Shown here: piece after piece, positions 11,522 to 59,180 of the stretch
How the letters are laid out: every line of letters starts with the position of its first letter
How positions within the stretch are numbered: position 1 is the first letter of the stretch
Assembly: GCF_016464705.1 (NCBI RefSeq)
Contig: NZ_JAEHOB010000007.1
Coordinates: 186,001 to 250,000, forward strand
DNA length: 64,000 nt
Direction of reading: 5' to 3'
Origin: Qaidamihabitans albus
GTDB lineage: Bacteria; Actinomycetota; Actinomycetes; Mycobacteriales; Pseudonocardiaceae
The notes under the pieces: generated by a model
The model's input: the letters and a program-made list of their open reading frames with translations, nothing else
Database searches by the model: none
Told to the model about the DNA's origin: nothing
Program-made: the position numbers and the translations under genes

Positions 11522-11567
11522 CTCGTGAGTGGCTACGCGAGTTAGAACTCGCGTAGCCACTCACGAG
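11522..11567. repeat. Family A palindrome, perfect copy
   Basis: Two 22-base arms (11522-11543 and 11546-11567) are exact reverse complements around AG. The outer part reads CTCGTGAGTG and the centre CGAGTTAGAACTCG. It lies between the convergent thiolase and the LppU-like gene ends and probably also terminates transcription. Confidence 0.93.
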
Positions 11568-25753: not shown

Positions 25754-25798
25754 CTCGTGAGTGCGCACGCGAGTTAGAACACTGTTACGCACTCACGA
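25754..25798. repeat. Family A palindrome, degenerate copy
   Basis: The left arm matches other copies (TCGTGAGTGCGCACGCGAG) and the outer right arm CGCACTCACGA is intact. The inner right arm reads AACACTGTTA in place of AACTCGCGTG, so the stem is broken near the loop. It lies between the start of the sulfotransferase gene and the end of the MmcQ/YjbR gene. Confidence 0.85.
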
Positions 25799-25850
25799 CC
25801 GGTGACGTGCGGAAACAGTGCGCCCTGGTCCGCTCCCGGCCGCGCGGGAG

Positions 25851-47200: not shown

Positions 47201-47244
47201 TCGTGAGTGGCCACGCGAGTTCTAACTCGCGTGGCCACTCACGA
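47201..47244. repeat. Family A palindrome, perfect copy with CT centre
   Basis: Arms 47201-47221 and 47224-47244 (21 bases) are exact reverse complements around CT, so this copy is in the opposite orientation to those with AG. The middle of the arms reads GGCCA/TGGCC. It lies between the ftsB end and the DUF501 start. Confidence 0.93.
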
Positions 47245-52986: not shown

Positions 52987-53032
52987 CTCGTGAGTGCGCA
53001 CGCGAGTTAGAACTCGCGTGCGCACTCACGAG
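52987..53032. repeat. Family A palindrome, perfect copy
   Basis: Arms 52987-53008 and 53011-53032 (22 bases) pair exactly around AG. The middle reads GCGCA/TGCGC, while the 11522 copy has GGCTA/TAGCC; both arms change together. It lies upstream of the SurA-like gene and of the AbiEi/DUF559-like gene at 53135. Confidence 0.93.
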
Positions 53033-53134: not shown

Positions 53135-54128
53135 ATGCCCCTTCACCGAAGATGGTCCGCCGAGGCCATCCCCCCCCCCGGACCGCCTGCAGAGCTGGCG
53201 GACCCTGCTCGACGACCAGACCGGCATCGTCAGCCACGCGCAGTTGCGCATGCACGGGCACAGTGACGGCGACATCGCCGCGAACCTGGTGGCCGGCCGC
53301 TGGCATCGCGTGCTGCCCAGGGTCTACGCGACGTTCACCGGCGAACCGTCCCGCACCGCGCGGCTGCGCGCCGCGCTGTTGTACGGCGGGCCGTATGCCA
53401 CGCTGTCCCACCACACGGCCGCCGAGGAGTGGGGCATGCTGCCGGTCGCCGACCGCCCCGTCGAGATCACCGTGCCCTACTCGTGCTCGGCGGTCTCCCA
53501 GCCCCCGCTCGTGCGGGTGCACCGGTCGCGGGCGCTGCGCCACTCCGTCGCCGAGGCCACCCTGCCGCGCACGCGGCGCACCGACACGATCGTCGACCTC
53601 GCGGTCGCGCAGGAGACCGCCCGGCAGGCGCTGTACCTGGTCGTCGATCTCGTCAGCTCGGCACCGGTGTCGATGACCGACATGCTCGGCTGCGTGCAGA
53701 GCCGGCCGCCGTGGCGCTACCGCACGGCGATCAAGCGGGCGCTCGAACTGGTCGCCGGCGGGCTCATGTCGGCGCTGGAGGTCGAGTACGCCGAACGCGT
53801 CGAGCGTGAGCAAGGCATTCCCGGGGGCAGGCGTCAGGCACCGATGAGCGTGGACGGCCGCACGCTGTGGGAGGACGTCACGTACGACCCGCTCGGCGTG
53901 CCGCTCACCGTGCGGCTGGACGGCCGTGCCACCCATGCGACGGCCGGTGTCGCCTTCCGCGATCGGCGGCGCGACAACGCCGCCGAACTCGCGAGGCGGT
54001 CACGGCTCGTCTACGGCTGGCACGACGTGCACGACGGCCCGTGCGCCGTCGCGGCCGAGGTGCGCCGGGTGCTGCACCGGCACGGCTGGCAGCCGACGGT
54101 GAACCCCTGCCGCTGCTCAGGCTCGTGA
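53135..54128 (+). CDS. AbiEi/DUF559-like protein, apparent frameshift in C10 tract
   Basis: From about 53181 the frame encodes a typical protein: DRLQSWRTLLDDQTGIVSHA, RWHRVLPRVYATF, a middle with EWGMLPV, and a nuclease-like end VRLDGRATHATAGVAFRDRR with YGWHDV. The likely start, ATG at 53135 (MPLHRRWSAEAIPPP), is in another frame. Ten Cs at 53170-53179 separate them; nine would join the two. So this is a frameshifted gene, a slippery phase-variable tract, or a sequencing error. Without the fix translation could begin at TTG 53244 or ATG 53250. The stop lies inside the next palindrome. Confidence 0.7.
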
Positions 54129-54168
54129 GTGCGGAGACGAGTTAGAACTCGCGTGCGCACTCACGAGC
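54121..54168. repeat. Family A palindrome holding both convergent stop codons
   Basis: GCTCGTGAGTGCG...CGCACTCACGAGC, with mismatches in the inner left arm (GAGACG for CACGCG). TGA at 54126-54128 ends the AbiEi/DUF559-like gene, and TCA at 54161-54163 is the minus-strand stop of mfd. The repeat therefore supplies both stop codons. Confidence 0.9.
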
Positions 54169-59132: not shown

Positions 59133-59180
59133 GGTCGTGAGTGCCTACGCGAGTTAGAACTCGTCTGCGCACTCACGACC
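59133..59180. repeat. Family A palindrome, imperfect copy
   Basis: Outer arms GGTCGTGAGTG and CACTCACGACC pair exactly and the centre CGAGTTAGAACTCG is intact; the middle (CCTACG against TCTGCG) no longer matches. It lies 30 bases after the sugar dehydrogenase stop. Confidence 0.87.

Follow-up and report, generated by a model that had tools for sequence, protein, structure and literature searches.

The window analysed here is a stretch of 64,000 nucleotides, part of contig C61 of a 6.5-Mb genome. It carries seven copies of a short palindrome, family A, including the copy at 52987-53032. A preliminary description had listed these seven, and direct reading of the DNA located each of them as given, the first being truncated by the window edge:

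1-19, no strand assigned: family A, incomplete at the start of the window; read directly.
11522-11567, plus strand: family A, perfect palindrome with arms GCTACGCGA; convergent spacer, 9-10 bp to both stop codons; RNA fold -42.5 kcal/mol.
25754-25798, plus strand: family A with mosaic arms CGCACGCGA / ACTGTTACG and an unpaired inner stem; right flank matching the longer A-long unit; fold -20.4 kcal/mol.
47201-47244, minus strand: family A, perfect palindrome with arms GCCACGCGA; stop codon 3 bp away.
52987-53032, plus strand: family A, perfect palindrome with arms CGCACGCGA; divergent spacer; the syntenic place in P. shujinwangii has a palindrome whose arms differ.
54121-54168, plus strand: family A with imperfect arms; two convergent genes both take their stop codon from its TCGTGA ends; a palindrome is also present at the syntenic place in P. 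shujinwangii.
59133-59180, plus strand: family A with imperfect arms; lies about 32 bp downstream of a stop codon.

According to a home-made gene caller, the gene starts on the two sides of the copy at 52987-53032 are 51 and 218 bp away. The placement at gene ends that had been described for most copies holds for the five other complete copies but not for this one, the sole complete copy of the window that lies elsewhere. Three of the six complete copies are indeed perfect palindromes; the window is nevertheless atypical in this respect, with only 8 of 96 copies perfect in the 978 kb of the window genome that were examined. The centre at 47201, first read as inverted, merely reflects the opposite orientation of a nearly symmetric element. 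There is no copy between 25800 and 47200 (about 21 kb), an interval in which the AICE of the preliminary description presumably lies; at one copy per approximately 10 kb, a gap of 21 kb is by itself not significant.

Layout and copy number

Family A has a fixed order: C or G followed by TCGTGAGTG, a 9-nt arm, GTTAGAAC, the complementary arm, and CACTCACGA followed by G or C. The ends and the centre are near-invariant and the middles of the arms vary; all 20 fixed bases were intact in 82 of 97 copies (978 kb, window genome). The span from TCGTGAGTG to CACTCACGA was 44 bp in 257 cases, with each other length seen once, and since the next outward base in the window genome is always C or G, the unit is 46 bp long. 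The skeleton GTGAGTG-N9-GTTNNAAC-N9-CACTCAC, with at most 2 mismatches, gave about 490 matches in the window genome and 165 in its congener P. shujinwangii CGMCC 4.7125, which served as the comparison genome; the reversed pattern gave none in either. A half-site pattern likewise matched the window genome 321 times, versus 0 for its reverse, and the reversed control pattern had no match even at 5 mismatches in 1.66 Mb scanned from the two genomes. The family is therefore not rare in the genome. Being extragenic, palindromic and present in more than 100 copies, it falls within a loose definition of REPs.

Related repeats occur nearby. About 25 of 96 window-genome copies sit inside a longer, MITE-like unit of approximately 150 bp with GGTCACC/GGTGACC beside the core, ends like CTGTCCTTGATC and CTGCCTTCGAAC, and the mosaic right arm ACTGTTACG. 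It is found in the window at 25754-25850, at C1 426467, 408163 and 180180, at C61 309360 and at about 20 more sites. At two places in P. shujinwangii (C2 near 365575 and C11 near 134114), variants of 95-96 bp have the same ends and a common GC-rich insert in place of one arm. Four genomes of one genus (G470, G512, G546 and G569) have palindromes that combine GTGAGTG/CACTCAC ends and complementary arms with other centres, GGCTATAGCC and GTCNNGAC.

Distribution and arm types

With at most 2 mismatches, the skeleton was present in 118 of 327 sampled Pseudonocardiaceae genomes, belonging to 17 of 46 genera, some of them with one match only. A stricter form was found in 17 of 399 genomes sampled across the order; apart from one single-copy match with one mismatch, all were Pseudonocardiaceae. 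Carriers among the matches listed were Amycolatopsis, Kibdelosporangium, Haloechinothrix, Prauserella, Actinophytocola, Pseudonocardia asaccharolytica and Rhodococcus rhodnii. Named genomes contain at least 113 stretches with the skeleton and no match to the window-genome consensus, because the arms are species-specific: the common type is CGCACGCGA in the window genome, AGAAACGTG in P. shujinwangii, GTAAGGACG in A. decaplanina, GTAATGACG in A. orientalis and TTTTGGCCG in Rhodococcus rhodnii. The last of these carries, outside the Pseudonocardiaceae, several copies with its own arm type (L175, L184, L196, L200 and L230), possibly acquired by horizontal spread. The exact skeleton, used as a probe for carriage by phages, had no match in IMG/VR. 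We found no prior description of the family in the open-access literature, most subscription journals lying outside the search.

Position relative to genes and RNA folding

We classified the positions of 96 window-genome copies with the home-made gene caller. None lay within a gene; 52 were between convergent genes, 37 in tandem spacers and 7 in divergent spacers. Convergent spacers make up 15% of intergenic bases, and the excess of copies there is highly significant (binomial p 3e-19), as is the under-use of divergent spacers (p 1e-6). In tandem spacers, 32 of the 37 copies were nearer to the upstream stop than to the downstream start, with no bias in the orientation of the centre (20 to 14). 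Among 136 stop codons near copies, 67 were at a distance of 0-30 bp and 50 were inside the element; in 34 of the latter cases the codon is the TGA within the element's terminal TCGTGA. Genes that take their stop codon from the element usually encode final residues unlike those of the P. shujinwangii protein, as expected for insertion at the 3' end of a gene.

As RNA, the window copies fold into hairpins of -20 to -44 kcal/mol. No copy was called as a U-tract terminator in the region 46.5-60.5 kb, and the flanks of the window-genome copies have no T/A runs; an Rfam 15 scan of the window returned only two tRNAs above the gathering score and left family A unmatched. Position and symmetry make it plausible that the element acts as a two-way 3'-end structure, in termination or in mRNA protection. 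A simpler proposal would be that the copies are ordinary bidirectional terminators, that is, immobile hairpins selected at convergent gene ends and kept alike by occasional conversion. Their placement behind stop codons and their very stable folds agree with this, as does the finding that strong hairpins of other kinds likewise cluster between convergent genes. However, a terminator has no need of an exact 44-bp span or of a centre and ends that do not vary, the U-tract is absent, most copy-free convergent spacers have no strong hairpin, and several of the syntenic spacers in P. shujinwangii are hairpin-free and only 10-17 bp long. We consider this explanation unlikely.

Pairing of the arms

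In the window genome, 565 of 864 arm positions were paired (65%) versus 518 +/- 10 after shuffling (60%), and the excess was confined to the outer positions of the arms. Since the arms pair poorly there, the hairpin is not strictly kept in this genome. Other species gave a different picture: in 130 copies, 85% of arm positions were paired, versus 44% when shuffled overall and 65% when shuffled within species. An alignment of 48 copies contained both-sided changes in all nine arm pairs, with ends and centre hardly varying, and 96.2% of its cells paired, versus 76.9% after shuffling and 30-41% with slid partners; these copies were hand-picked, few per species and many of them perfect, so that the 96% is biased and the 130-copy count is the fairer measure. 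Arm pairing is thus not at chance level, and the paired arm changes first noticed among the window copies are strongly borne out once other species are included. The proposal that they reflect selection for the hairpin fares less evenly: the cross-species pairing supports it, but the window genome pairs weakly and the three perfect window copies alone do not demonstrate selection.

Arms at syntenic places and turnover of copies

Both flanks of 31 window-genome copies could be located in P. shujinwangii, and at 8 of these places a palindrome was present there too; about 3 would be expected by chance, as estimated from copy densities. At the 8 places the arms agreed at 2-5 of 18 positions, compared with 4.4 for random pairs between the genomes and 11.1 within the window genome, and the fixed positions agreed at 21-26 of 26. 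Similarly, A. orientalis has a copy at 5 of 13 places syntenic to A. decaplanina copies, and in 4 of the 5 each species has its own arm type. Elsewhere in these comparisons the spacer was short, or was taken up by unrelated sequence or by a palindrome of another family. For the pair A. decaplanina 56561 / A. orientalis 52149 the flanks match on both sides, and opposite orientations of the centre occur at places common to the two species. Such differences at shared places reflect either in-place rewriting of the arms or insertions that hit the same small targets more than once. At two loci the coding sequence continues into the palindrome at the same point in both the window genome and P. shujinwangii, and these shared reading-frame junctions favour old shared copies, at least there.

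The presence of copies also differs between species whose flanks are 90-98% identical, and these comparisons show fast gain and loss between close species. In close Amycolatopsis species the same spacers mostly contain unrelated sequence or palindromes of a different kind, with one exception, a short spacer of 7 bp. No clean insertion junction or target duplication was seen among the species comparisons, most places differing by their whole spacer content rather than by a simple insert; between the window genome and P. shujinwangii the spacers are too diverged for junctions to be read. Further palindrome families (ATGAAGGGGCCTTTCAT..., CGCATTTAGTCCTCTGGATGCG, GTGAAGGCCTCCTT..., GTTGCGAAAGTGGCTTTCGCAAC) occupy the same spacers at Amycolatopsis loci L270-L275 and L287-L306, and a repeat of about 180 bp at L214:7122-7303, from the Amycolatopsis comparison, matches dozens of places. 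Copying of whole palindromes, the other possibility raised in the preliminary description, is supported: each genome has homogeneous arms, a given place changes its arms wholesale from one genome to another, and copies are both gained and lost.

Near-invariant ends, centre and spacing could also mark the duplex binding site of a protein that organises the chromosome or acts as a regulator and recognises the arms in a species-specific way, and the window-genome arms do resemble a degenerate motif with free positions. Across species, however, almost any arm sequence is found provided that it is paired, which points to the folded strand; moreover, the occupied places turn over fast and the copies are not at promoters. 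A duplex binding site is, in our view, rather improbable.

Search for a mobilising enzyme

The Y1 domain PF01797 of RAYT/IS200 transposases was absent from 16 of 18 carriers, including the window genome, and control genomes were positive; carriers without it have up to 400 copies. We therefore rejected mobilisation by RAYT/IS200 enzymes for the window genome and most carriers. The GTAG tag was present in 1 of 192 window-genome flanks and 0 of 264 flanks in other species, and the CGTC tag in 5 of 192 and 5 of 264, respectively. The family might still have been moved by a RAYT that has since been lost or that acts from outside the sampled genomes, given its likeness to REPs in size class, copy number and 3' placement (PMC3733652) and the fact that REPtrons can be lost. 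Against this stand the missing PF01797 in high-copy carriers, the near-absence of GTAG, and an active-looking turnover that requires a present enzyme, and we regard a departed RAYT as very improbable.

Hardly credible, finally, is purely mutational pairing, in which template switching copies arm onto arm with neither selection nor an enzyme: the process does homogenise arms and invert spacers (PMC8604942), and it would fit the shared places with opposite centres and the palindromes that extend into unrelated flanks (14 bp in two cases, 10 bp in one), but it acts within one copy and leaves both the arm sequence shared by hundreds of loci and the invariant ends and centre unexplained.

Interpretation

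Taken together, these results lead us to think that family A probably consists of REP-like miniature mobile palindromes without a RAYT, homogenised by lineage and tolerated, or used, as two-way 3'-end hairpins. Because template switching cannot spread arm sequence between loci, we propose a trans-acting enzyme other than a RAYT, whose targets would be the invariant ends and centre, probably in a folded strand, and which would spread or re-copy the element; template switching between the arms may help to maintain their complementarity. Copies would survive mainly behind stop codons, where the element supplies its own stops and a strong symmetric hairpin, and the hairpin may there serve in termination or mRNA protection. 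A bolder version, which we put forward tentatively, is that these are RAYT-independent palindromic replicators whose enzyme reads the ends and centre and rewrites the arms genome-wide in concert, so that inherited copies show the arm dialect of their present host.

If the mobile-palindrome reading is true, family A would be a sizeable and apparently undescribed group of small mobile hairpins in actinobacteria that produce antibiotics. Since the usual REP transposase is missing, the standing question of what moves and homogenises RAYT-less palindromes becomes testable, and the species-specific arms at shared places would be a natural record of palindrome movement or homogenisation.

Comparison with known systems

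The paired uptake sequences of Neisseria and Haemophilus, inverted pairs of short words at convergent gene ends, act as terminators. Family A is likewise an inverted short-word pair at convergent gene ends; unlike an uptake sequence, however, its word TCGTGAGTG is in little or no excess outside the palindromes, and we rejected an uptake-sequence reading on this ground. With the MITEs of insertion sequences family A has in common that it is non-autonomous and of high copy number, and that about a quarter of the copies examined lie in the longer unit with terminal-repeat-like ends; it differs in that the 46-bp unit is entirely palindrome, with no target duplication and no related transposase gene found (PF01797 search). 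The CGTC-tagged REPs are also extragenic palindromes with no known mobiliser, but their stems measure 8-9 bp (PMC3733652), whereas that of family A is about 20 bp with a fixed-variable-fixed design, and CGTC is rare in its flanks. REPs of the GTAG superfamily are associated with RAYT transposases (PMC2817692, PMC3733652). Family A departs from them in having no GTAG tag and, in most carriers, no Y1 transposase, in its symmetric 46-bp form with fixed ends and centre around a variable stem, and in its host phylum, the actinobacteria, which is not named in these two surveys. Like GTAG REPs, it consists of short extragenic palindromes, tens to hundreds per genome and mostly downstream of genes, that form subfamilies with alternative complementary stems.
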